Shown piece by piece: positions 1 through 22,272 of a DNA stretch of 23,842 bases. The position numbers and the translations under genes are program-made. Below the pieces are notes generated by a model. It was not told the DNA's origin. It saw nothing but the letters and a program-made list of their open reading frames with translations, and made no database searches. The stretch is taken from positions 1 through 23,842 of the IMG/VR virus record IMGVR_UViG_3300009091_000063; one strand, written 5' to 3'. Positions within the stretch are counted from its first letter, which is position 1. Each line of letters opens with the position of its first letter. The stretch comes from a virus.

Positions 1-1808
1 CAGCAATCGCCGCAACAATAGTTAACGCTTCCACCGGTAATGGTCTCTTCATAGACCAAAATGGTAATGGTATTGGTCTAAATATAGATAGTGAATCTAC
101 CAGTATAAATGTATTAGATATTCAAGCAGATGCTCTTAGTACGGGATACGCTGCCAGATTCTATTCAAATTCTACCCATACCGGTGTAAGAAATTTAGTA
201 ACCATTATAAATGATAATACATTGGCAGAGAATGCATGTCCCCTTTACATCCAACAAGATGCCGCAAAGGTAGCGTTCTATATAGATCAAAATGCAAACG
301 GTGAATCAATCTATATAGATACCGAAGCCACAACATTATCTGCATTAAGGATATTTGCAGATCAACTTTATACAGGAACAACAACTGCTTCCGTACTATC
401 AGTATCCAACAATTTTGCCGGTATCACAACCGGTACAATGGGTTATTTTGCACAAGACAGCGCAACCGCAACTGGAAAAGTTCTTCATTTATATAACGAT
501 GGATCTGGAGATAGCTTATACATAGATCAAAATGGAAATGGTATAGCAATCAATATAGACACTGCTGCTACTACAGTCAGTGGATTCAATCTTCTTGGAT
601 CCGGGGTTCATACCGGGACATTAACAAATTCCCTTGTAAATATTTATACAACAGCAGCAAGTGTGACTGGAACATTGGTATACTTATCCCATCAAGGAAC
701 CACACCTACCGGGCAAGTATTACAAATACATAATGATGGTACAGGAAATAGCATATATGTAGATGTGGACGGAAATGCAAAAGCTGTCAGCGTCAATACT
801 GTTGCAACAACTGCAGGTGGTATAGCAATACTCAGCACTGGTGTAATTACAGGAACTGGGACATCTTCTCTTCTTTCCTCGTATAATAATACCGCCACTA
901 GCTCAAGCGGGACAATAGCTTATTTATCCCACGAGGGAACAACACCCACGGGTATTGTATTAGATGTTCATAATGATGGTACCGGCAACGGTGTATTCAT
1001 TAACCAAGATGGTAATGGGGTAGCTTTAAATATAGACAACGACGGTACTTCCAACAGCCTCACTATCCAAGGCACAACCGCTACAGATGTTACTGTATCC
1101 AAAGCCGGTACTCTTTCAGTTGCAGTTGGTGCAGTATTCAACGATAGTGGTTCGTCTACTGGTGATGTGGTTATAGAAGGAGATACCAATACAACTCTCT
1201 TCACAGCAGATGTTTCTGCAGATGCAATCATCATAGGTGACGGCGGCACAACCAACTATCGTAAGATAGATACGGTTGGTGCACAAACCATGGAAGGTTC
1301 GGCACAACCCCTCGCAGAGTTACAGTATATGATGGGCACTGAGGGGTTCGGGGTTAGAATACCCGCAACCTCTGGCACTAATATGACGACCTATGGAGAC
1401 GCCAATGGTGAAATTGGTACATGTCAGTTCGCGGATGGATCGACACAATATGTGGATATCTCTTTCAAGATGCCGGGCAACTATGAACAGAATACAAATG
1501 TGTATGTTGATCTTGTATGGATGGCAAATGCTACAACTGGCAACTGTTATTGGGGTGCTGCATATTCAGCGGTAGCCAACGATGAAGCAGTAAATCCAGC
1601 ACTCTCAGCATTTACTACTGGTCAATTCTTAACATCGGGTACAGCATATTATAAGAATACGCATAGAATTACTTTGATAACACCGACAATTGATCCCGAA
1701 GACTTTATGACTATTAGGGTTGAGAGAGTTGGTGGAGATGCATTAGACACGATGGGTGTAGCAGTAGATCTTCTTGCAGTAAATGTTCAGTTCGGAGTGA
1801 ACTCATAA
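1..1808 (+). CDS. Beta-solenoid repeat virion protein (5' end outside window)
   Basis: The frame is open from base 3 through the left edge, so the ATG at 222 is internal and the true start lies upstream; 601 residues are visible. Degenerate repeats centred on IDQNGNG or INQDGNG (near bases 48, 276, 516 and 984) alternate with segments such as SHQGTTPTG and HNDGTGN, a periodic pattern expected of a right-handed beta-solenoid fibre shaft. After about base 1290 the repeats stop and a non-repetitive region of about 170 residues follows, probably a globular tip or trimerisation domain. The gene ends TAATG, overlapping the next start by one base, so translation is probably coupled. It is a paralogue of the gene at 3848. 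The role (tail fibre, head fibre or adhesin) is inferred from repeat architecture and context; no enzymatic motif is visible. Confidence 0.8.
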   Translation, partial: AIAATIVNASTGNGLFIDQNGNGIGLNIDSESTSINVLDIQADALSTGYAARFYSNSTHTGVRNLVTIINDNTLAENACPLYIQQDAAKVAFYIDQNANGESIYIDTEATTLSALRIFADQLYTGTTTASVLSVSNNFAGITTGTMGYFAQDSATATGKVLHLYNDGSGDSLYIDQNGNGIAINIDTAATTVSGFNLLGSGVHTGTLTNSLVNIYTTAASVTGTLVYLSHQGTTPTGQVLQIHNDGTGNSIYVDVDGNAKAVSVNTVATTAGGIAILSTGVITGTGTSSLLSSYNNTATSSSGTIAYLSHEGTTPTGIVLDVHNDGTGNGVFINQDGNGVALNIDNDGTSNSLTIQGTTATDVTVSKAGTLSVAVGAVFNDSGSSTGDVVIEGDTNTTLFTADVSADAIIIGDGGTTNYRKIDTVGAQTMEGSAQPLAELQYMMGTEGFGVRIPATSGTNMTTYGDANGEIGTCQFADGSTQYVDISFKMPGNYEQNTNVYVDLVWMANATTGNCYWGAAYSAVANDEAVNPALSAFTTGQFLTSGTAYYKNTHRITLITPTIDPEDFMTIRVERVGGDALDTMGVAVDLLAVNVQFGVNS

Positions 1809-2515
1809 TGCCATCTGGAACAAGTATTGGATTTCCCAAAAAGGTTCCCCCACCAATGGATCAATCTTGTGTATTATATTATAAGATGGACGAGGCTTCT
1901 GGTGATATAAAAGACTGGTCTGTAAACAATAATACGGGTAAAGCAACCGATTTAACATATTCCCAAACTGGTAAGTTTGGTACTGCCTGTTTATTCAATG
2001 GGACCACTTCTTTCGTTGATGGAGGAAATGGTGCAAGTCTAAATTTTGAAAGAACTGACCCATTTACAATTTCGATATGGGCTTCTCTAATCAGTCTGAC
2101 TGGTAGTGATGATGATTTAATATCCAAAATGGATGCCAACAGCCCATTTAGGGGATATACATTAACACTTGCTACTGGTGGAGTATTGATATTTTATTTA
2201 ATAAATTCTTATTCCAGCAATTGTATAAAAGTAACCTTTGATGGCACCTATCTCGATAGTGTGATGAGAAATTATGTGGTTGTTTATGATGGCAGCAGTG
2301 ATGCACATAATATAAAATGTTATGTTAATGGTGTTAATACATCCTTTGTCGTTGGTTATGATAGTTTATCTGGAACAACCCAAACTGCTGTTAATCTCAA
2401 TATTGGAAGACGACAAAATAGCAGATATTTAAATGCCACCATTGATGAAGTCCGTATCTATAATCGTGCTCTTACAGCATCCGAAGTAAAACAATTATAT
2501 ATGGCGGGAAGATAA
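1808..2515 (+). CDS. LamG/concanavalin-like virion adhesin, copy 1
   Basis: A 235-residue protein consisting almost wholly of one LamG-type jelly roll (about residues 18-230). Family signatures are YYKMDEASGDIKDWS near the N-terminus, FNGTTSFV, a central strand followed by CYVNGV, and the closing strand DEVRIYNRALTASEVKQLY. Such domains bind carbohydrate and are common in phage adhesins. The start shares one base with the TAA of the upstream gene. The N-terminal cap IGFPKKVPPPMDQSC and the C-terminal cap recur in the next two genes, so this is the first of three tandem paralogues. No signal peptide is visible, as expected for a virion protein assembled in the cytoplasm. Carbohydrate binding is inferred from the fold. 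Confidence 0.85.
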   Translation: MPSGTSIGFPKKVPPPMDQSCVLYYKMDEASGDIKDWSVNNNTGKATDLTYSQTGKFGTACLFNGTTSFVDGGNGASLNFERTDPFTISIWASLISLTGSDDDLISKMDANSPFRGYTLTLATGGVLIFYLINSYSSNCIKVTFDGTYLDSVMRNYVVVYDGSSDAHNIKCYVNGVNTSFVVGYDSLSGTTQTAVNLNIGRRQNSRYLNATIDEVRIYNRALTASEVKQLYMAGR

Positions 2516-2516
2516 T

Positions 2517-3197
2517 ATGACTGACATAGGTTTTCCAAAAAAGATACCGATGCCCATCGACCAATCATGTATTTTTTATGCCAAGTTAGACGAGGCTTCG
2601 GGTAATATTTATGATTATTCTAGTAATCAGTTTGTGGGTACTGCTACCGATTTAACTTATTCTCAAACCGGTAAGTTTGGAACAGCATGTAGTTTTAATG
2701 GGACATCAAGCAGAGTGGTCTTTGCCGATACTACAAACTTGGGGGAAGTTGGGGATCATACATATATGGTATGGACCAAATCTACTGGTACCCCAAATTC
2801 AACTAAATATATATTTTGTCACTATAACTGGACATTCAAATGGTTTTCAAGTACATCTGTAGGATTTTCGGTTGGTCGTATGAATAATGGTTCTGGTCCT
2901 TTTTATCAACTCACCATGACACTAACCACAGAACAACAAGCTGATTGGTTGCATCTTGTTGGTGTTTATCAGCCCTCCATACAACGCACATATTTTTATG
3001 TCAATGGGGAACGTGTTGGTGAAGCTGATATAGACGTTAGTGTTATATATGCAGATTATGGTAACTTTAATCTTCAACTTGCTGATTCTAGTCATGGGGC
3101 AGCAACATATTATCAGGGATTGATTGAAGATGCCCGCGTCTATAATCGCGCATTATCAGCATCGGAAATTAAACAACATTACATGAGAGGAAGATAA
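2517..3197 (+). CDS. LamG/concanavalin-like virion adhesin, copy 2
   Basis: A 226-residue paralogue of the preceding gene, one base after its stop. The cap IGFPKKIPMPIDQSC and the LamG opening (FYAKLDEASGNIYDYS, FNGTSSRVVF) are retained. The core diverges (YMVWTKSTGTP, LVGVYQPSIQRTYFYVNG), and the closing strand reads EDARVYNRALSASEIKQHYMRGR-stop. The first 60 codons are close to copy 1 at DNA level while the middle is not, suggesting duplication followed by divergence of the ligand-binding part. The ribosome binding site GGGAAGATA lies in the last codons of copy 1. Confidence 0.85.
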   Translation: MTDIGFPKKIPMPIDQSCIFYAKLDEASGNIYDYSSNQFVGTATDLTYSQTGKFGTACSFNGTSSRVVFADTTNLGEVGDHTYMVWTKSTGTPNSTKYIFCHYNWTFKWFSSTSVGFSVGRMNNGSGPFYQLTMTLTTEQQADWLHLVGVYQPSIQRTYFYVNGERVGEADIDVSVIYADYGNFNLQLADSSHGAATYYQGLIEDARVYNRALSASEIKQHYMRGR

Positions 3198-3198
3198 T

Positions 3199-3846
3199 AT
3201 GCGGATAGGTTTTCCTAAGAAAACACCAGCCCCAATAGATCAATCATGTGTTCTTTATTATAAGATGGATGAAGCCTCTGGAAATATAAAGGATTGGAGT
3301 GGTGGTGGAAATACCGGAATTGTTGCTGGCAGTCCCGTATATTCCCAATCTGGAATTTTTACAAATTCTATTGATTTAAATGATGGTGGATATGTAAGTT
3401 CGACCAGTACAAGTATAACTGCTGATGGTACTATAATTTTATGGGTGTACCCGGATACTATGGCAAGTGGGGAGAGAATTATGCAAAAAGGAACAGGTGC
3501 TAGACCATCTATATCGTTTGATGGTACTTTGAATTTTCAATTCTTAGCCTATAATGGAACCGCGTTCTCTACGGCTACTTCAACTTTTCCTGCAAGCGCG
3601 GGGACATGGTATCATCTGGCATGTACCTGGAAAGAAGATGATGTAGTTGCTATATATATAAATGGAAAGTTTGAGGACGATGATCCGATAACTGGGACAA
3701 TTCAAGCACAGGAAAATCCATTTGTGTTTGGACGAAGGGGTACAATAAATGATTCATTTTTCGATGGAAAAATGGAAGAAATAAGAATATACAATAGAGT
3801 ATTATCAGCATCAGAAATTAAAGAACATTACATGAGAGGAAGATAA
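3199..3846 (+). CDS. LamG/concanavalin-like virion adhesin, copy 3
   Basis: A 215-residue third tandem LamG protein. It has the cap IGFPKKTPAPIDQSC, the opening YYKMDEASGNIKDWS, a core containing TIILWVYPD and TWYHLACTW, then IYINGKFEDD and the closing EEIRIYNRVLSASEIKEHY ending MRGR-stop. The WYHLACTW strand is the most typical LamG sequence of the three. The start follows the stop of copy 2 after one base, with GAGGA in the terminal codons of copy 2 as ribosome binding site. Function is inferred as surface glycan binding on the virion; which particle part carries it cannot be told from sequence. Confidence 0.85.
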   Translation: MRIGFPKKTPAPIDQSCVLYYKMDEASGNIKDWSGGGNTGIVAGSPVYSQSGIFTNSIDLNDGGYVSSTSTSITADGTIILWVYPDTMASGERIMQKGTGARPSISFDGTLNFQFLAYNGTAFSTATSTFPASAGTWYHLACTWKEDDVVAIYINGKFEDDDPITGTIQAQENPFVFGRRGTINDSFFDGKMEEIRIYNRVLSASEIKEHYMRGR

Positions 3847-6900: not shown

Positions 6901-7455
6901 ATGAGTTTAGTAGTACATAAAACAACGTTCGAGGTAATAGAACTTGCAAATACTCCAGATTATATGGATGGAAATTGGTTAATTAATCCAATTCTTCCCA
7001 ACTGTGAAAAGAAATTTTGGGTATTGGAAGGGGAATTATTTAGAGAAATGTCTCTGGTAGAAAAAGAGGAATTGGCTTATAGCACAGAATCTACTATCTA
7101 TTTGATAGATATAAAAAAACTTCTTACAAAACAGAACGCACATGCGTATGAGAATGATCCCAACGCCATTATAAATCCTATAATGCTATTGAATGTTCCT
7201 CTTAAATATACAAAAGTGGTTGATGGGACAGTAGTTGAAATGACACAAGTGGAGAAAGATGTTGTTGATTTACCATTCTTAGAAAGACTTAATTCAAAAT
7301 TAGTTATACAAGATACGTTTACAACTGCTATCGATGATCTACAACAAATTCAAAATGTATCTTCTCCCACTAATGCACAAATTGTTGCAGCAGTAAAACG
7401 TATGGCCCAAATAGAAGAACAGTTGTTAAGGTTTATTTATAGAAATTTTATTTAA
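6901..7455 (+). CDS. Unrecognised virion-region protein with duplicated EM..EK motif
   Basis: 184 residues; I do not recognise a named family. Two similar segments occur: FWVLEGELFREMSLVEKEEL near residue 40 and YTKVVDGTVVEMTQVEKDVV near residue 105. The pattern of an aromatic residue, a short VxxG turn, EM and EK is often seen in small phage tail and baseplate-associated proteins. The C-terminal 60 residues are predicted helical (AIDDLQQIQNV, AVKRMAQIEEQLLRFIY), possibly a coiled-coil or docking helix. The start has GAGGAATT as ribosome binding site, made from the stop region of the polyglycine gene. Placement suggests a structural or fibre-assembly role, but no function can be given. Confidence 0.7.
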   Translation: MSLVVHKTTFEVIELANTPDYMDGNWLINPILPNCEKKFWVLEGELFREMSLVEKEELAYSTESTIYLIDIKKLLTKQNAHAYENDPNAIINPIMLLNVPLKYTKVVDGTVVEMTQVEKDVVDLPFLERLNSKLVIQDTFTTAIDDLQQIQNVSSPTNAQIVAAVKRMAQIEEQLLRFIYRNFI

Positions 7456-7469
7456 ATAGATGGGAAATC

Positions 7470-8732
7470 ATGGCCTTTGGATCATTTACTTATGGGGCAG
7501 TAGAGTATGGCGGAAGCCATGTGCCTTTAATGACTATGGATCTTACTGATACCCATACTGAAGTAGAAACTCTTACCAAGGAAGTGGATAAACCTTTATA
7601 TGATTATGAAGGTATATCGGAGATGAATGATTCGTCTTTAATTGTATATTATAAAATGGACGAAATATCCGGAGATTTATATGATTCATCTGGAAATAAT
7701 AATACAGCAACAACTGCAAATCTTACATATGGACAAAGTGGTGTGATAGGCAAATCTTGTTCTTTCAGTGGTAACGCAACTTCTTATGCAATAAAAAATC
7801 CGGTTTCAACTTTTCCAACCACCACACTCACCGCATGTTGCTGGTTAAAAAGTACTAAAGCTGGAGCTGGAATAATATCATATGCAATATCAACCGAACT
7901 CAATAATGAATTTTTACTTATAGATGTTACAGACTTAGACATCTATATACACAATCTTACAGTATCAGTAGGAATAAATGTTGGGGATGGTAATTGGCAT
8001 CATCTTGCGGTTACTTGGCAATCATCAAACGGTTCAGCATTATTTTATGTTGATGGTAATTATGTTACAGGAAAAACAATTGCAACTGGTGTTAGTATAA
8101 TTGGTGGCGGCTCGCTAGTTCTTGCACAAGATCAGGATAGTGCCGGAGGAGGTTTTACCAACGCACAGGCATTCTCGGGAAATTTGGACGAGGTTAGAAT
8201 ATATAATAGAGTTTTAAATGCAATAGAAATTAAACGTGTTTATCAAAATTCAATGGATTTCATTACCAAAGAAGCAGATAAAAGAATTTCCGATACAGAA
8301 TTATCAGTAGAAGTTATAACTAAAGAAACCTCAAGGGATTTATCGGATACAGAATTATCAGTAGAAGTTATAACTAAAGAAATAGATAAAAGAATATCAG
8401 ATACAGAACAATCGGTAGAAGTTATAACCAAAAGCACTGATAAGAGGCTGACAGATACAGAACAATCAGTAGAAATCTATTCAAGATTATTCAATGCATT
8501 TAGAACGTTCACTGATACTCTTATTGGCGTTGCAACAGTTACAAAATCAACCATCAAACGTATTTCCGATACACTGTTGGGCAAAGAAGTATTTGCTTAT
8601 AGTCAGTATATCTCGCGATGTACAATTGAGGTTCTAGATGACTATACATCCACAATTGAAATCGTGGATGAATACACATCTACGATTGAATATTTAAATG
8701 AATACACTTCGGAAATAGAATATATATATTAA
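7470..8732 (+). CDS. LamG domain nested in an 18-residue repeat array
   Basis: 420 residues. Residues about 55-260 form a LamG domain (VYYKMDEISGDLYDSS, WHHLAVTWQ, FYVDGNYV, DEVRIYNRVLNAIEIKRVY). After it come tandem 18-residue repeats of the form TELSVEVITKEIDKRISD. A matching orphan copy (TDTHTEVETLTKEVDKPL) precedes the LamG domain near residues 26-43, so the domain appears inserted into a repeat array. The last 35 residues hold three shorter repeats ending EYTSTIE or similar. This LamG domain is related to those at 1808-3846 but lacks their GFPKK and MRGR caps. A virion adhesin or spacer role is inferred. The ribosome binding site is GATGGGAAA. Confidence 0.8.
   Translation: MAFGSFTYGAVEYGGSHVPLMTMDLTDTHTEVETLTKEVDKPLYDYEGISEMNDSSLIVYYKMDEISGDLYDSSGNNNTATTANLTYGQSGVIGKSCSFSGNATSYAIKNPVSTFPTTTLTACCWLKSTKAGAGIISYAISTELNNEFLLIDVTDLDIYIHNLTVSVGINVGDGNWHHLAVTWQSSNGSALFYVDGNYVTGKTIATGVSIIGGGSLVLAQDQDSAGGGFTNAQAFSGNLDEVRIYNRVLNAIEIKRVYQNSMDFITKEADKRISDTELSVEVITKETSRDLSDTELSVEVITKEIDKRISDTEQSVEVITKSTDKRLTDTEQSVEIYSRLFNAFRTFTDTLIGVATVTKSTIKRISDTLLGKEVFAYSQYISRCTIEVLDDYTSTIEIVDEYTSTIEYLNEYTSEIEYIY
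8262..8477 (+). repeat. 54-bp (18-residue) tandem coding repeats
   Basis: About four in-frame units of 54 bases inside the LamG repeat gene. The 36 bases at 8292-8327 are identical to 8346-8381, exactly 54 bases apart; the third and fourth units are more diverged. A partial orphan unit lies upstream near 7546-7599, before the LamG domain. Confidence 0.85.
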
Positions 8733-11089: not shown

Positions 11090-12088
11090 ATGGCAAGTGG
11101 AGCACTCGCAGCAATTGCGGTAAGAAAAGAAGCAACATATAAAACAAATCCCGCGACATTTAACGGAACATCCGATGGTATTTTTGGACACGGGACAAAA
11201 TTATCGTCTATATCAAAAGCAAATAATGTAGAGAGAATCTACGGTATCGGTAGCAGACAACAGCAAGTTAACCTTGAGAAACAATTTGTCGGTTCATTCT
11301 CAGTAGAGTATGTACTCTCAAATCCCTGGGTATTCGTACCCTTCTTTGGGAAGTCGGCAACAACTGGAGGTCCTGTATATACACATACAATGACCGAGCA
11401 GAATGATTTACCGAGTTATTCAGTACAAAATGGTATTGAACTTGGAGCAACCGATGCAAGACAAGTCTTTCTTGGTTGTGTAAATAACTCAAAGAGTTTA
11501 ACATGCAACGTTGGCGATCCTGTGATGGTTAGAGATGATTATGTATACGCAACTGAATTATTCTCAACCGATACTTATGTAGCACAACAGGCCGAAGACT
11601 TCAGCGTATATAGTTTTGCATTCGGAACTCTCGGCTTACCGGATGGAACAACAGTAGCTAATGTACAGAACTGTGAAATTTCCATGGCTAATAACTCGGA
11701 CATTATATATGGTATTGGCTCAAGGGTTGGTTCAACACATGTAGATAAGCAGAGAGAGTACTCGATAAGAGCATCTGTATATCTTACTAATCCAGCAGTG
11801 TTCTGGAGAGCATTCTATACTGGTGGCGCAACATCACCATTCAGCGGAACAGCCCCGGGAACACATACAGAAATTCCAACAATGACTTTAACACTCGACA
11901 ATGGTGGAGCAAGTACTGCCCAAAGGCAGATTAAACTGGCATTCACCGGTGTGATGATGGATAGCTATTCATCTTCGCAAGATCCCACTGCACCCATAAT
12001 GGAGGACGCGACATTCTTTGCACGCAGCCTTACTGTAACGGCTATCGATGCAACGACAACAACTCCTGCAGCATGGTATACAGAATAA
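11090..12088 (+). CDS. Major tail tube protein
   Basis: 332 residues. The N-terminus MASGALAAIAVRKEATYKT, then VERIYGIGSRQ, FVGSFSVEYVLSNPWVFVPFFG and a second half with IIYGIGSRVGSTHVDKQREYSIRASVYLTNPAVFW, show an internal duplication: the YGIGSR block and the following SxxxxLTNPxxFW-like block occur twice (about residues 49 and 204). This is typical of the larger phage tail tube proteins with two tube domains per chain. AAGGTGAAATC supplies the ribosome binding site. The protein polymerises into the tail tube around the tape measure. Its place just before the chaperone and tape measure genes confirms the role. Confidence 0.85.
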   Translation: MASGALAAIAVRKEATYKTNPATFNGTSDGIFGHGTKLSSISKANNVERIYGIGSRQQQVNLEKQFVGSFSVEYVLSNPWVFVPFFGKSATTGGPVYTHTMTEQNDLPSYSVQNGIELGATDARQVFLGCVNNSKSLTCNVGDPVMVRDDYVYATELFSTDTYVAQQAEDFSVYSFAFGTLGLPDGTTVANVQNCEISMANNSDIIYGIGSRVGSTHVDKQREYSIRASVYLTNPAVFWRAFYTGGATSPFSGTAPGTHTEIPTMTLTLDNGGASTAQRQIKLAFTGVMMDSYSSSQDPTAPIMEDATFFARSLTVTAIDATTTTPAAWYTE

Positions 12089-12109
12089 ATATAAATGGAG
12101 GAACCAAAA

Positions 12110-12433
12110 ATGGTATTGAAAACTAAACCACTAGACGTCTCAAAATTTTATGATGGCGTCCATACGACTATAACTATAAGAAAATTTAATGCGGGAGATC
12201 TCGCAGAAATAAGAGACTCTGTACAAGTCAACATGATCGGGGATATGCAATCAGCTAAACCCCAGATGGGTCAACTGTTTCTGTTAACCCTTCTCAAAGG
12301 TATTCATGAAGCACCATTTCTTTCTGCAGGAAAGAAGTTGGACATGACAACCGTGAAGGAAATTGATGGAGAACTTGCTGACTTCTTAGCAGCAGAAATA
12401 AATAGTTATAACAACATCTCCCCAAACTTATAA
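12110..12433 (+). CDS. Tail assembly chaperone, short form (gpG analogue)
   Basis: 107 residues from ATG 12110. GGAGG at 12097-12101 is eight bases upstream of this ATG and lies inside the alternative start at 12095, which therefore is probably not used. The sequence (TITIRKFNAGDLAEIRDSVQVN, then helical GQLFLLTLLKGIHEAPF) fits the short tail assembly chaperones encoded between tube and tape measure genes. The last codons contain an in-register slippery heptamer, and a second frame continues downstream. The protein binds tape measure protein during tail assembly but is absent from the mature virion in known systems; here that is inferred from synteny. Confidence 0.8.
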   Translation: MVLKTKPLDVSKFYDGVHTTITIRKFNAGDLAEIRDSVQVNMIGDMQSAKPQMGQLFLLTLLKGIHEAPFLSAGKKLDMTTVKEIDGELADFLAAEINSYNNISPNL

Positions 12434-12612
12434 CATCATTTGAGAATGCGTGTCGAAACGGGACACGCAATCCCCATTTTCAAATGAAGATGAAACGATA
12501 TGCGTTAATGTACTGTGGCATTCCGCCCAGTGAAATAGATAAAATGAGTGTGGAAGACTTTGAATTATTTGCAGTCTTCTTTAGTGTAATGAGACAAAAT
12601 AGTATTGGATGA
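12110..12612 (+). CDS. Tail assembly chaperone, -1 frameshift fusion (gpG-T analogue)
   Basis: Predicted product of a programmed -1 shift at 12421-12427. Decoding to AAC at 12425-12427 and slipping back one base gives 106 residues from the zero frame plus 61 from the -1 frame (12427-12609, stop TGA 12610-12612), 167 in all. The -1 frame is open from 12412. Its end reads MKRYALMYCGIPPSEIDKMS and VEDFELFAVFFSVMRQ, the kind of short helical segment found in the T part of lambda-type G-T proteins, which recruits tube subunits to the tape measure. An ATG at 12484 would give a 42-residue free-standing product, but it lies inside the hairpin stem and has no good ribosome binding site, so the fusion is favoured. 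Confidence 0.75.
12421..12486 (+). promoter_or_regulatory. Programmed -1 frameshift signal: slippery site plus hairpin
   Basis: CCCAAAC at 12421-12427 is of the X XXY YYZ type and is split C CCA AAC in the zero frame. A 9-nt spacer (12428-12436) precedes a stem pairing 12437-12448 with 12475-12486 (12 bp, one G-U). Inside it a second stem pairs 12449-12454 with 12462-12467 around a 7-nt loop, leaving a 7-nt bulge at 12468-12474. The zero-frame stop TAA lies in the spacer at 12431. Confidence 0.8.
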
Positions 12613-12618
12613 TAACAT

Positions 12619-13914
12619 ATGGCAGAAAAACTCACCCTAGAAGTAGATATAATTCCTAATATGAGTGCCGTCGATGCGGAACTTAAAAAACCTAGATCAA
12701 TGCTTGGTGATATACAATCCAGTTTAAAAACTGCCAAGTCTCCAGGTGGTGGGGGCAAAGACAAACCCGCTACCGAAGGGAGCTTTTTAAAAGGGCTGGG
12801 AATATGGGGAATTATTGCCGGCCTTTTAATGAGCTTAAAACCAGTACAGATGTTGTTAAAAATTATATCCGCAATTTTAACAATGACATTATACCCCCTC
12901 ATCAAATTTGTACTGATGATCTTAAAACCTGTTATAGTGTTCTTATTTAAGACCTTAATTCTCCTTTATAAATTCCTAACAAAATCGGATACTAAAAAGG
13001 ATATAGCCAAGTTAGATCCATCTGGACAAATGTTGAAACGATTCGAAGGTCTCGATGAACAAGGACAGCAACTTGTAAATCTGGGTCAACAGATTGGAAA
13101 GTTATTTGGTGTTGATTTAATAGGATCGGGAAAAGCACTTGGTGACTTTCTTCGTTCTCTTCCAGCACGATGGGATATTTTTGTAAGAGCTGTTGGAGAA
13201 TTTTGGAGCAACGCGGTAACCCAGGCAGGGGAAGCATGGGATGGCTTCATGAATTATCTGGGCAATCTAAAAACATCCTTTGATCAAACCATGCAACCCC
13301 TCTGGGCTTTTATAGGGGCATTGCCCGGATCTTTCAAAGAAACTATAAAACCCCTCCTTGACTATTGGGCTGCATTACCATCATCATTTAAGGAAACCAT
13401 ACAACCACTATTGGATTTCCTCACAAAGGCCAAACAACAACTTGATGATTCAATTAGACCTTGGATAGATTATATCAAAACTATCCCCGGGATGATGAGC
13501 GAGAAATTGGCTGATTGGGCCAAATGGGCAGTGAATTTACCCACATGGATGTTAGACCAATTAAAAGGATTGGTTGGAATCGGTAAAAAGATCTTCGATA
13601 CAATTATAGCTGCTGTCAAAGATGTCATTAGACAATATTTACCAAGCGCTGGAAGTGGAAGTTCCACATCTAAAAGAGCATCTGGTGGTCCAGTAAGTGG
13701 GGGAGGAACCTATCTCGTGGGAGAAAAAGGTCCAGAATTGTTTACCCCGGGCGGTGCTGGTTCGATAACGCCCAACAATAGACTTGGCGGAGGAACCACC
13801 AACATTACCATAAATGTGCAGGGTAATGTGGATAGTCAAGCAACTATAAACAAAATTGTAGAAGCTGTAAATAGAGCACAATATCAAAACTCGAAGAAAG
13901 TTGGAGCATGGTAA
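12619..13914 (+). CDS. Tape measure protein (short)
   Basis: 431 residues. The N-terminus (EKLTLEVDIIPNMSAVDAEL) is followed by a hydrophobic region of several segments at about residues 55-115 (GIWGIIAGLLMSL, LLKIISAILTMTLYPL, FVLMILKPVIVFLFK, ILLYKFL), then amphipathic helical stretches with repeated LPSSFKETIxPLLD units. The C-terminus carries GEKGPELFTPGGAGSITPNN, a hallmark of tape measure proteins, and INVQGNVDSQATINKIVEAV. It sets tail length and may form a membrane channel at infection. It is short for the family, implying a short tail (roughly 65 nm at the usual 0.15 nm per residue). It follows the chaperone gene by six bases. Confidence 0.9.
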   Translation: MAEKLTLEVDIIPNMSAVDAELKKPRSMLGDIQSSLKTAKSPGGGGKDKPATEGSFLKGLGIWGIIAGLLMSLKPVQMLLKIISAILTMTLYPLIKFVLMILKPVIVFLFKTLILLYKFLTKSDTKKDIAKLDPSGQMLKRFEGLDEQGQQLVNLGQQIGKLFGVDLIGSGKALGDFLRSLPARWDIFVRAVGEFWSNAVTQAGEAWDGFMNYLGNLKTSFDQTMQPLWAFIGALPGSFKETIKPLLDYWAALPSSFKETIQPLLDFLTKAKQQLDDSIRPWIDYIKTIPGMMSEKLADWAKWAVNLPTWMLDQLKGLVGIGKKIFDTIIAAVKDVIRQYLPSAGSGSSTSKRASGGPVSGGGTYLVGEKGPELFTPGGAGSITPNNRLGGGTTNITINVQGNVDSQATINKIVEAVNRAQYQNSKKVGAW

Positions 13915-17079: not shown

Positions 17080-17805
17080 ATGGCACCAACAGTAGAAAGG
17101 TATCCAATCGCGGACCAAACAAATAAAGCCGCTGATTGGCATGATACAAATTATCGGCTAAGTGAGGATTATATTGCAAGTGGTTTCGCACCAACCGATA
17201 GTGGGGGATTGGTGGTCAGTATTGCAAACGGCGTCGCATACTGTAACGGGGTTAGACATAGTCTTACTGGGGGAGGTTTCTCCCTTACTATGACAGACGA
17301 TGCCACGAATTATATATTTTATGATCCAACCACATTAGATTTTCATGTAGATACCAATGATTCTAGGCCAACTAATGGTGTCAGAATTGCAGTAGTTGTA
17401 ACTGTGGCAGCTGATATCACAACATTGACAGATGTCAGAGAATTACAATTTGGCATTCCTTCAGGTCTTATAGCCATCTGGTCAGGAACTATTGCCAACA
17501 TTCCCAGCGGTTGGGTACTATGCAATGGTTCCAACGGGACTCCTGACTTAAGAGATAGAATGGTTACTGGTGTTGGAACCACATATGTAGTGGGAGATAC
17601 TGGTGGAGAAGCCACCCACACTTTAACAATTCCTGAATTACCAGCCCATACACATACATATAATAAATATACCTACACTGGTTCGGGATGGGATAATGGT
17701 AATAACTTTGAAGATGTTCTCAGTACAACTGGTTCAACTGGTGGGGGCCAATCTCACAATAACATGCCACCATATTATGCATTAGCATTTATAATGAAAC
17801 TCTAG
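17080..17805 (+). CDS. Phage tail-collar domain protein, copy 1
   Basis: 241 residues. Residues 1-125 form a conserved beta-rich N-terminal module (MAPTVERYPIAD, SGFAPTDSGGLVVSIANGVA, NYIFYDPTTLDFHVDTNDSR) that probably docks on the tail. Residues about 128-241 are a tail-collar domain: GLIAIWSGTIANIPSGWVLC, NGTPDLRDRMVTGVG, then ELPAHTHTY and the ending HNNMPPYYALAFIMKL. The HTH pair and closing PPYYAL are hallmarks of the family, whose trimers coordinate metal at fibre tips in known cases. The ribosome binding site is GAGGAT. It is the first of three tandem paralogues and probably takes part in host recognition. Confidence 0.9.
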   Translation: MAPTVERYPIADQTNKAADWHDTNYRLSEDYIASGFAPTDSGGLVVSIANGVAYCNGVRHSLTGGGFSLTMTDDATNYIFYDPTTLDFHVDTNDSRPTNGVRIAVVVTVAADITTLTDVRELQFGIPSGLIAIWSGTIANIPSGWVLCNGSNGTPDLRDRMVTGVGTTYVVGDTGGEATHTLTIPELPAHTHTYNKYTYTGSGWDNGNNFEDVLSTTGSTGGGQSHNNMPPYYALAFIMKL

Positions 17806-17814
17806 GAGATAAAA

Positions 17815-18549
17815 ATGGCACCAAGCGTAACCAAATTCCCAGTAGCAAATGAAGCTGTAGCAGCAGCTACTTGGCAATCCGTGATTAATGAAATGGGTGG
17901 AAACTTTGTATCTTCTGGATTAGCACCATCTGATGGCGGTGGACTAACACTCAACATATCCGATGGAGTGGTCTTCTGTGGTGGTATAAAACACGAATTA
18001 ACTGGAGGACCATTTGCCAATACCATGACAAATGCAACCACAAATTATGTATTCTTTGATCCAGCTACCCAGGATTTTCACATCGATACCGATAACTCAA
18101 GACCCACAAATGCAGTAAGAATAGCTACAGTAACAACTGCTGGAAGCGATATAACCAATCCGACATCATTGGATACTAGGGAAGGACAAGTTGGACTTCC
18201 TGTGGGAATTATAACTATTTGGTCGGGATCGACGGCCTCCATTCCATTTGGCTGGCAACTATGTAATGGGACAAATGGTACTCCCGATTTAAGAGACAAA
18301 TTTGTCGTAGGTGCTGGTTCAACCTATTCTGTAGGAGATACTGGTGGAGAAGCTACACATGTCTTAACCACTGCAGAAATGCCGGCACACACACATACAT
18401 ATTATCTGCATCAAGCAGCTGCCACCAACTACGCTATTTTTCAAAATAACTATGCTGAATCAAGTGCAACCACTGGTTCAACTGGTGGAGACACGGCTCA
18501 CGAAAATAGACCGCCCTATTATGCACTGGCATATATCATGAGGATGTAA
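17815..18549 (+). CDS. Phage tail-collar domain protein, copy 2
   Basis: 244 residues, closely related to copy 1 throughout (MAPSVTKFPVANEA, SGLAPSDGGGLTLNISDGVV, FFDPATQDFHIDTDNSRPTN). The collar domain has IITIWSGSTASIPFGWQLC, GTPDLRDKFVVGAG, EMPAHTHTYY and ENRPPYYALAYIMRM. The part between the HTH motif and the end (about residues 197-230), likely exposed at the tip, differs most from copy 1, as expected for a host-range segment. AGGAGATAAAA precedes the start. Confidence 0.9.
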   Translation: MAPSVTKFPVANEAVAAATWQSVINEMGGNFVSSGLAPSDGGGLTLNISDGVVFCGGIKHELTGGPFANTMTNATTNYVFFDPATQDFHIDTDNSRPTNAVRIATVTTAGSDITNPTSLDTREGQVGLPVGIITIWSGSTASIPFGWQLCNGTNGTPDLRDKFVVGAGSTYSVGDTGGEATHVLTTAEMPAHTHTYYLHQAAATNYAIFQNNYAESSATTGSTGGDTAHENRPPYYALAYIMRM

Positions 18550-18550
18550 C

Positions 18551-19312
18551 ATGACCGTACCTACAGTAAGTCAATATCCAGTTGCTGGTGGAACCAACAC
18601 CGCTGCCAATTTTAAAACAATGGTTTCGGAACATGGTGGAAACTTCGTAGCTAGTGGAATGACCTCCACAAATGGCGGGGGATTAACACTTAGTATAGCC
18701 ACGGGTGTAGTTTATATTGCAGGACTTAGATATAATCTTGGAGCATCTAGTGCTACAATGACCGATGGTAAGACAAATTATGTTTTCTTTGATGCCGCTA
18801 CAGATGATTATCATGTAGATCAAGATAATTCAGCACCCACAAATTCAGTCCGTTTGGCAACAGTAGTTGCTTCTGGGGGAGCAATCACTACTATCACGGA
18901 CAGAAGAAGCAGTTATTATATTGTACCGAGTGGTACAATTATGATTTGGTATTCAAGTACTGGAAGTATCCCATTTGGGTGGCAAATATGTGACGGTACT
19001 AACAGTACTCCTGATCTAAGAAATAGTTTTGTTATTGGGGGCAAACAGGATGATGGTGGGGTAGTCAAGACAAATGTAACTGGAAGCTTGACAGCAACCG
19101 GTGGTGCTACAACAGTAACTCTTACTGTAGATCAAATTCCAGCACATACGCATTCTGCCTACATCCATACTAGAACAGATACTGGTACCAGTATAGTCGA
19201 CTTAACAAGTACTGCTGGTTGGGCTTCATATAATACCAGTTCTACTGGTGGTGGAGGATCACATACAAATATGCCCCCCTATCATGCATTGTGTTATATA
19301 ATGAAAATTTAG
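18551..19312 (+). CDS. Phage tail-collar domain protein, copy 3
   Basis: 253 residues; the most diverged of the trio. The N-terminal module is kept (VSQYPVAGGTNTAANFKTMV, GGGLTLSIATGVVYIAG, FFDAATDDYHVDQDNSAPTN). The collar domain has TIMIWYSSTGSIPFGWQIC, STPDLRNSFVIGGKQDDGG, QIPAHTHSAY and HTNMPPYHALCYIMKI. The segment after STPDLRN carries an extra stretch (TNVTGSLTATGGATTVTLT) absent from copies 1 and 2. GAGGA in the end of copy 2 gives the ribosome binding site; the start lies one base after its stop. Three non-identical copies could give mixed fibres or a reservoir for recombination. Confidence 0.88.
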   Translation: MTVPTVSQYPVAGGTNTAANFKTMVSEHGGNFVASGMTSTNGGGLTLSIATGVVYIAGLRYNLGASSATMTDGKTNYVFFDAATDDYHVDQDNSAPTNSVRLATVVASGGAITTITDRRSSYYIVPSGTIMIWYSSTGSIPFGWQICDGTNSTPDLRNSFVIGGKQDDGGVVKTNVTGSLTATGGATTVTLTVDQIPAHTHSAYIHTRTDTGTSIVDLTSTAGWASYNTSSTGGGGSHTNMPPYHALCYIMKI

Positions 19313-20038: not shown

Positions 20039-20464
20039 TCATCTCTCCTTATTCAAACGATGTATTTCTATTAGATAATTTTCTCGCTCGTTGAGTTGTT
20101 CTTGTGTTAAAGAATTTCCTTTGGGAACTTTTCTCTTTCTTAAAAATTCCAACATGATGTCACATTGTTTTCTTTTCAATTTTAAATATGTTTGTATTGA
20201 TGAAAGAAATTCCTCCATATCTGATATATTGGGTTTCCAATTATAAAGAGGATTTTTGTGTTGGGACACATCAATTGTAATACATCCCCCATATATATCT
20301 TTAAAATATTGGATTATTTCTTTATTAATACTTGATATATGTATATCTGGATAATGAATTGGGTTTATATTTCCCATATTTTTTGATGGTTTTCTTCTAT
20401 AAATAGTTATACAACCATCTGCATCCAAATATCCAGCTGTATATATCAAATCTTCTTCCATCAT
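20039..20464 (-). CDS. LAGLIDADG homing endonuclease
   Basis: 141 residues with one LAGLIDADG motif, YTAGYLDADGCITI at residues 8-21 (catalytic acid probably Asp16). The late conserved helix YLKLKRKQCDIMLEFLRKRK is typical of single-motif, homodimeric members. These enzymes cut a long DNA site and spread their own gene by repair. The start overlaps the NrdD stop as ATGA, so it is translated by coupling from nrdD. There is no sign of an intron or intein around it, so it is free-standing. Its target is probably near its own insertion point in nrdD or the flanking gene, which is inference. Confidence 0.88.
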   Translation of the reverse strand: MMEEDLIYTAGYLDADGCITIYRRKPSKNMGNINPIHYPDIHISSINKEIIQYFKDIYGGCITIDVSQHKNPLYNWKPNISDMEEFLSSIQTYLKLKRKQCDIMLEFLRKRKVPKGNSLTQEQLNERENYLIEIHRLNKER

Positions 20465-22272
20465 TCTACCACCACATTTCCATTTTCATCTAAATGGTAT
20501 GGTATATATTTTATATCGCTTGGTTTCATTTGTTTAAAAAATATCTTTTGATTAAATTCTTCCCGTTTTCCAATATTCCAACGATCAACACTTCTATAAT
20601 ACCCAACCACACGACTATAGATTTCAGCCTTGTCGCAACATGGCTTCTTTCCATAATGTTTTCCATGTACTGGACATGCACCATAAGACGGTGACCATGT
20701 AATATAAGGTAATGTTTGATGAGTACAAACCCCCCTAACCAAATCTTTAAGACCTTTTACACCAACAGCTGAATCATCTCCCATATCTATATGGAAAACA
20801 GTTCCTCCTGTATAATGACGTTGCAACTGTTCCTGATGTCGCAATGCATCTAGAATACCAATCTCTATATTGGTGGGGATTAACGATGAGCCAGTATAAT
20901 AAGGTGCTTTATCAGTACCTTGTGTAAAGATTTCGGGCAACTTTTCTGCATCCAATCTTGCCAGAGAATGCGAACATCCCTCACCAGGAGTTGCTTCAAA
21001 GTTAAAGAGATGTCCAGTTTCTTGTTGGAATTCGAGAACTCTTTGTGCAATATGTTTCAATACCTTTTCACACCAATCAACATTTGTAAGAATATCTTCT
21101 TTACAAAAGTTGACAGAACATTCATTTAGACCATTTATTCCCATGGTAAGGAAATAGGTCTTGGCAAGTTTGGCACCAACATAGGCATTGGTCATTGGGA
21201 ATAGCCCAAGTTTAGTACCCTTGTTGATACATTCCTTCTTCATCAATAGATATTCTTTCCCATCTTCCAACATCTTATCCAAGATAGCATAGAACTTCTT
21301 ATCATCACCATTGGATAAATAACCAATCCTTGGCATGTTTACTGTAAATACAGCAAGACTACCTGTATTGGCACCAAAGTTCCATATTCCTCCAGACACT
21401 CTCTGAACTTCTTTCAGGTTTAGCCTAAGTCGACAACACATCGATAGTGCATCTTCTTCGCTTATTGTTGAATTTATATAATTTGCGAAGTATGGTGTTC
21501 CCCATTTCTGGGCAAGAGTAAATATCTTATCAGCTATTTCTGAATCCCAGTCAAAGGATTTACTAATATTATAGGTCGGTAATGGGAAGGTGAACGGTTT
21601 CCCATCACCAGGACCTTCTATCATTATATCAAGGAAAGCATGGTTAATCATTTCAACTTCATCTTGGAAGTCTGCAAATGAATCACCTGTTGTTATTGGA
21701 ACTCCTCCAATAATGGGTGTCAATTCCTTATAATATTTACTGGGTTTTATCCCAAAAGTAAGGTTGATGAAAGGTGTTTGGAAACTAGGTCTCATCGGAA
21801 AAGAGAATGACCATATCATTTCCTGGACTTCTTGTTTTACCTCATCATAGGTTAGTTTATCTGCCGCCACGATGGGTGCCAGTAAAATATCAATATCTCT
21901 CCAAGCCTGGGCTCCTGCAAACTCACCCGTCATAATATACGTCATATTGACAATATGATCTAGAGCGGTAGAGAAATGCTTTGCTGGCCTGGAACTCACT
22001 CCTGAAGGGTTATATAAGCCTTTCTGAAGCAATCCTAAGGTGTCGTTACCATTACAATAACGTCCATAAGTACCTGCTTCAAGATTATGGATATGATAAC
22101 TTCCATCTATATGTTTCTTTCCAATTCTCCCATACTTAGCAAGAGCATCTTTTGCAAGGATTGTTCCCGCAATATGAGACTGTAGACCAGAAAATGATCT
22201 ATTATGGTTGGCATTACCCTTAATACGCCAAGTCTTTTCTTCTACATATTCTTTTACTAATTCTATTCCCAT
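20461..22272 (-). CDS. nrdD: Anaerobic (class III) ribonucleoside-triphosphate reductase
   Basis: 603 residues. It reduces ribonucleotides to deoxyribonucleotides with a glycyl radical, feeding phage DNA synthesis without oxygen. Visible landmarks are IHNLEAGTYGRYCNGNDTLG (Cys73), MCCRLRLNLKEV (Cys279/280), GGIWNFGANTGSLAVFTVNM, GINGLNECSVNFC, and SRVVGYYRSV with the radical Gly557. A zinc-type region holds Cys533, His536 and Cys545/546. The N-terminal ATP-cone regulatory domain of many cellular enzymes is absent; the protein begins at the catalytic domain. No intron or intein interrupts the frame. An activase (NrdG) is required and not seen, so it is beyond the right edge or supplied by the host. 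The ribosome binding site is AGGGGGA. Confidence 0.95.
   Translation of the reverse strand: MGIELVKEYVEEKTWRIKGNANHNRSFSGLQSHIAGTILAKDALAKYGRIGKKHIDGSYHIHNLEAGTYGRYCNGNDTLGLLQKGLYNPSGVSSRPAKHFSTALDHIVNMTYIMTGEFAGAQAWRDIDILLAPIVAADKLTYDEVKQEVQEMIWSFSFPMRPSFQTPFINLTFGIKPSKYYKELTPIIGGVPITTGDSFADFQDEVEMINHAFLDIMIEGPGDGKPFTFPLPTYNISKSFDWDSEIADKIFTLAQKWGTPYFANYINSTISEEDALSMCCRLRLNLKEVQRVSGGIWNFGANTGSLAVFTVNMPRIGYLSNGDDKKFYAILDKMLEDGKEYLLMKKECINKGTKLGLFPMTNAYVGAKLAKTYFLTMGINGLNECSVNFCKEDILTNVDWCEKVLKHIAQRVLEFQQETGHLFNFEATPGEGCSHSLARLDAEKLPEIFTQGTDKAPYYTGSSLIPTNIEIGILDALRHQEQLQRHYTGGTVFHIDMGDDSAVGVKGLKDLVRGVCTHQTLPYITWSPSYGACPVHGKHYGKKPCCDKAEIYSRVVGYYRSVDRWNIGKREEFNQKIFFKQMKPSDIKYIPYHLDENGNVVVE

Follow-up and report, generated by a model that had tools for sequence, protein, structure and literature searches.

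The tail chaperone gene in the virus record IMGVR_UViG_3300009091_000063 (IMG/VR) very probably encodes two tail assembly chaperones of the G/GT type, which would be made from one start codon by means of a -1 ribosomal slip on the heptamer C_CCA_AAC, assisted by a downstream hairpin. The window, i.e. the whole stretch of DNA that was analysed, comprises this entire single metagenomic record of 23,842 nucleotides. We infer the slippage from the position of the gene, the predicted fold and homology of the zero-frame product, and the conservation of the -1 extension across many relatives. Most ribosomes would stop at the zero-frame TAA and release a G-like protein of 107 residues. A minority, paused by the hairpin, would shift back by one base at C_CCA_AAC, which would yield a GT-like fusion protein of 167 residues. 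The roles of the two parts can be proposed from phage lambda: G would coat the tape measure protein, and T would recruit subunits of the tail tube.

Organization of the chaperone locus

The genes are arranged in the order tail tube, chaperone, tape measure, as is expected for a chaperone of the G/GT type (Table 1). The start codon of the zero-frame ORF is preceded by the motif GGAGG at a distance of 8 nt, whereas an alternative ATG at 12095 has no comparable leader.

Table 1. Coordinates of the putative frameshift locus and its neighbouring genes in the window.
Feature	Position	Strand	Remarks
Tail tube (major tail) protein gene	11090..12088	+	upstream neighbour; Pfam Phage_tube_2, E 3.4e-11
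Zero-frame tail assembly chaperone (G-like), 107 codons	12110..12433	+	ATG 12110, Shine-Dalgarno GGAGG; assigned by predicted fold and homology
Slippery heptamer C_CCA_AAC, zero-frame register	12421..12427	+	
9-nt spacer including the zero-frame stop TAA (12431-12433)	12428..12436	+	
Putative stimulatory hairpin, 18 bp, 7-nt bulge (3' side), 7-nt loop	12437..12486	+	MFE -19.9 kcal/mol
-1 frame extension (T-like), 61 codons and stop	12427..12612	+	equivalents in relatives; shift inferred
Tape measure protein gene	12619..13914	+	downstream neighbour; PHROG 1538 tail length tape measure, E 2.7e-12

Identity of the zero-frame product

The zero-frame product is a tail assembly chaperone, judging from its predicted fold and its homology to other viral proteins. 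The AF2 model (pLDDT 81) shows the tail chaperone fold, and its best two distinct PDB matches in Foldseek were the HK97 tail assembly chaperone gp13 (2OB9, probability 1.00) and YqbN of B. subtilis (3KLU, probability 0.99), with E-values of 0.01-0.05. The likeness to these two proteins is one of predicted fold only, with 12% and 7% identical amino acids, respectively. Among viral models, the zero-frame model resembles annotated tail assembly chaperones, including that of HCTV-1. Furthermore, more than 50 viral relatives have homologous zero-frame ORFs (single-comparison E-value of 6e-12 against the profile of the A-run group described below). An earlier note on this DNA had already assigned the gene to the tail chaperones, and predicted fold, homology and gene position bear this out.

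Slippery heptamer and downstream hairpin

The heptamer ends 6 bases before the end of the 107-codon ORF and conforms in register to the canonical -1 frameshift pattern X_XXY_YYZ; the zero-frame codons CCA (12422-12424) and AAC (12425-12427) are followed by TTA and the stop codon TAA. Open from 12412 to 12612, the -1 frame would extend the 106 residues read from ATG 12110 by 61 beyond AAC. Heptamer and register, the stop codon within the spacer, the length of extension and fusion (the latter computed from ATG 12110), as well as the 9-nt spacer and the bulged 18-bp hairpin, were all found as the earlier note had described them.

In the genes on the plus strand of the window, 29 in-register XXXYYYZ heptamers occur among 6268 positions, and only those at 12421 and 7443 lead beyond the zero-frame stop. 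The latter (A_AAT_TTT in register, 7443-7455) is located at the end of an ORF at 6901-7455. It is followed by an ORF with a LamG/pentaxin domain (7470-8732), which is open in the -1 frame, possibly by chance.

The hairpin is closed by the pair C12437-G12486 and starts 9 nt past the heptamer, within the 5-9 nt of a canonical -1 frameshift signal. Folds of 50 nt with -19.9 kcal/mol or stronger were found in only 7 of 11,896 windows (0.06%), and a fold this strong at spacers of 5-9 nt was found at 0.09% of random sites. In comparison to dinucleotide shuffles, a 60-nt stretch that begins 5 nt after the heptamer gave a z-score of about -4.2, and 100 nt including the heptamer gave -2.2. When the protein of the -1 frame was fixed and the codons were redrawn according to their usage in the window, an equally strong fold arose in 1 of 5000 synonymous recodings. 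Since shuffles, recodings and other sites agree in this respect, the hairpin is unlikely to be a by-product of coding.

Putative frameshift signals in related viruses

Two profile searches of IMG/VR, along with a degenerate DNA pattern, yielded about 130 further loci, many of them overlapping. Searches of IMG/VR with single proteins (chaperone, tape measure and tail tube as queries) gave no matches, and a profile of two sequences matched HCTV-1 only. In nearly every relative an extension of 60-100 residues in the -1 frame, often without a usable start codon, precedes the tape measure gene. Where G and T meet, a slippery sequence lies in register in more than 50 distinct related loci that possess such an extension.

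Two clades were distinguished by their signals. The first (29 distinct tail-tube sequences) carries the heptamer C_CCT_TTA in register in the overlap with the -1 extension, in all loci that reach past the junction. The second (54 distinct tail-tube sequences) mostly has A9-A10 at the junction, again with the extension in the -1 frame. Among 51 distinct cases, the run consists of 9 or 10 A in 46, of 7 in four and of 11 in one. Within 442 kb of this clade, 49 of 54 runs of at least 9 A are located in the chaperone gene, and a fiftieth lies in the displaced chaperone gene of locus L077. In L077 and L147 an extra ORF is present between the tail tube and chaperone genes, and in L077 the chaperone gene with its A10 run follows this ORF. 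The A9-A10 homopolymer at the junction (L074-L149) is conserved over about 50 distinct viral loci and is rare elsewhere in them.

In the closest large relative (L026, 5210-5231), the extension after an A10 run is in the +1 frame, unlike in the other members. This either reflects an error in the homopolymer or points to transcriptional slippage; a +1 extension after A10 could be reached by polymerase slippage, but not by a -1 ribosomal shift.

The combination of CCCAAAC and this hairpin was found in the window only, among the related loci, and when the branch of the window was targeted in a further scan, all contigs recovered belonged to the A-run clade. The T domain of the window matched those of the relatives weakly (HMMER 0.02; hhalign P 0.0016 for one comparison). 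Downstream folds in the relatives had mean z-scores of -0.5 (C_CCT_TTA group) and -0.3 (A-run group), which sets the window apart as the one with a strong hairpin. In this comparison of hairpin folds, most relatives apparently manage without such a structure.

The earlier note had proposed that conservation of both frames without conservation of heptamer and stem would refute frameshifting. Both frames are indeed conserved, and heptamer and stem are not. Yet other slippery sequences stand in register at the G/T junction of the relatives, so that the shift appears to be conserved and only its signal replaced. The comparison of sequences thus still supports -1 frameshifting of the lambda G/GT type.

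Alternative explanations

The T part might instead be a separate protein with its own start codon. According to the earlier note, ATG 12484 would be the only possible start and is hidden in the stem; the codon is indeed situated in the stem, but the claim that it is the only one was wrong, because the first half of the -1 ORF contains two further in-frame ATG codons at 12490 and 12508. A block of separate initiation by the stem, which the note also proposed, is not needed to explain the gene. An ATG is also present in the first third of 16 of the 77 distinct extensions counted. However, none of the three codons in the window has a usable Shine-Dalgarno sequence, unlike ATG 12110, and in most relatives an ATG occurs far into the T domain or is absent. 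Several -1 ORFs of the relatives lack ATG altogether, and those of L021, L024 and L148 lack ATG, GTG and TTG. Owing to the missing leaders in the window and the missing start codons in the relatives, independent initiation of T was rejected as very improbable.

Still less probable is a -1 shift in the window by means other than heptamer and hairpin, for example by transcriptional slippage. The A9-A10 runs at the junction in the sister clade would fit such a process, as bacterial transcriptional slippage is known at runs of this length. At the junction of the window, however, no homopolymer exceeds 4 bases, and the strong hairpin is positioned as for ribosomal shifting. Finally, as the sequence stems from a single metagenomic record, one ORF could have been split by an indel, either through a sequencing error or in a decayed gene. 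More than 50 distinct relatives break into the -1 frame in the same way and have in-register slippery sequences, which excludes an indel error in practice; the probability left to this explanation is negligible. Ribosomal slippage on C_CCA_AAC with the hairpin is therefore by far the preferred reading.

Host and further features of the window

A long MCM helicase gene was detected in four records of the C_CCT_TTA group, and in one A-run record there is a match to Hjc, an archaeal resolvase family. These findings and the kinship to HCTV suggest that the lineage infects archaea, and the virus of the window is probably archaeal itself. None of the related records tried encodes PCNA, and scans of genome collections gave no matches and hence neither a cellular host nor a provirus.

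Two sets of three tandem paralogues, both likely host-binding parts, are encoded at 1808-3846 and 17080-19312. One set consists of small proteins of LamG-like appearance, which share the N-terminal motif IGFPKK..DQSC; the proteins of the other set have a similar layout, the first of them with a tail-collar domain. On the minus strand at 20039-22272, an anaerobic ribonucleotide reductase gene (NRDD, E 6.7e-133) is directly followed by an ORF for a LAGLIDADG endonuclease, which overlaps its end by 4 bases.

Possible turnover of the frameshift signal

In the tail-tube tree, the four signals need three changes, which is the least possible; the tree comes from a quick search, and the placement of long branches, including that of the window as a lone long branch beside the A-run group, is unsure. 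A tentative explanation, which we consider possible rather than probable, is that one tail lineage of mostly likely archaeal viruses has kept the recoding from G to GT while the mechanism was swapped among its members. The window would then use a ribosomal slip with a hairpin, the C_CCT_TTA clade a slip without an evident hairpin, and the remaining clade its A9-A10 runs. These runs may work by transcriptional slippage; ribosomal slippage would explain them as well. The loci, from viruses with a haloarchaeal relative, offer dozens of candidate sites for the shift and fall into four signals by tail-tube phylogeny. With this set it becomes testable how a required shift survives the replacement of its signal.

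Comparison with known systems

Phage lambda uses the slip heptamer G_GGA_AAG. Layout and logic of the lambda gpG/gpGT -1 frameshift are shared with the window (PMC5009743); no sequence similarity is claimed. In haloarchaeal viruses, -1 frameshifting in the same gene has been published for HCTV-1, -2 and -5 and HVTV-1, and +1 frameshifting for HSTV-2; the -1 cases were inferred (PMC5009743, PMC8211752). According to a 2021 review, -1 frameshifting has been studied by experiment in a single archaeal case (PMC8211752). Tail-chaperone frameshifting is long known, including the published haloarchaeal cases, and the interesting part is the exchange of the signal along one tail lineage.

The nearest annotated relative is the chaperone of HCTV-16 (gp126/127), whose gene comes directly after that of the tail tube and is annotated as 'tail assembly chaperone, putative programmed translational -1 frameshift'; the tail tube proteins of HCTV-16 and the window share 30% identity. 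HCTV-1 and HCTV-16 (Druskaviridae) have the slip heptamer GGGAAAC, in contrast to CCCAAAC in the window. The HCTV zero-frame protein is longer (189 aa, in comparison to 107 codons), its downstream fold is no stronger than shuffles (z -0.3), and two further small genes precede the tape measure gene, all unlike the window. Like the window, both viruses encode the chaperone between the tail tube and the tape measure region, with a -1 shift close to where the zero frame ends and a matching predicted fold.
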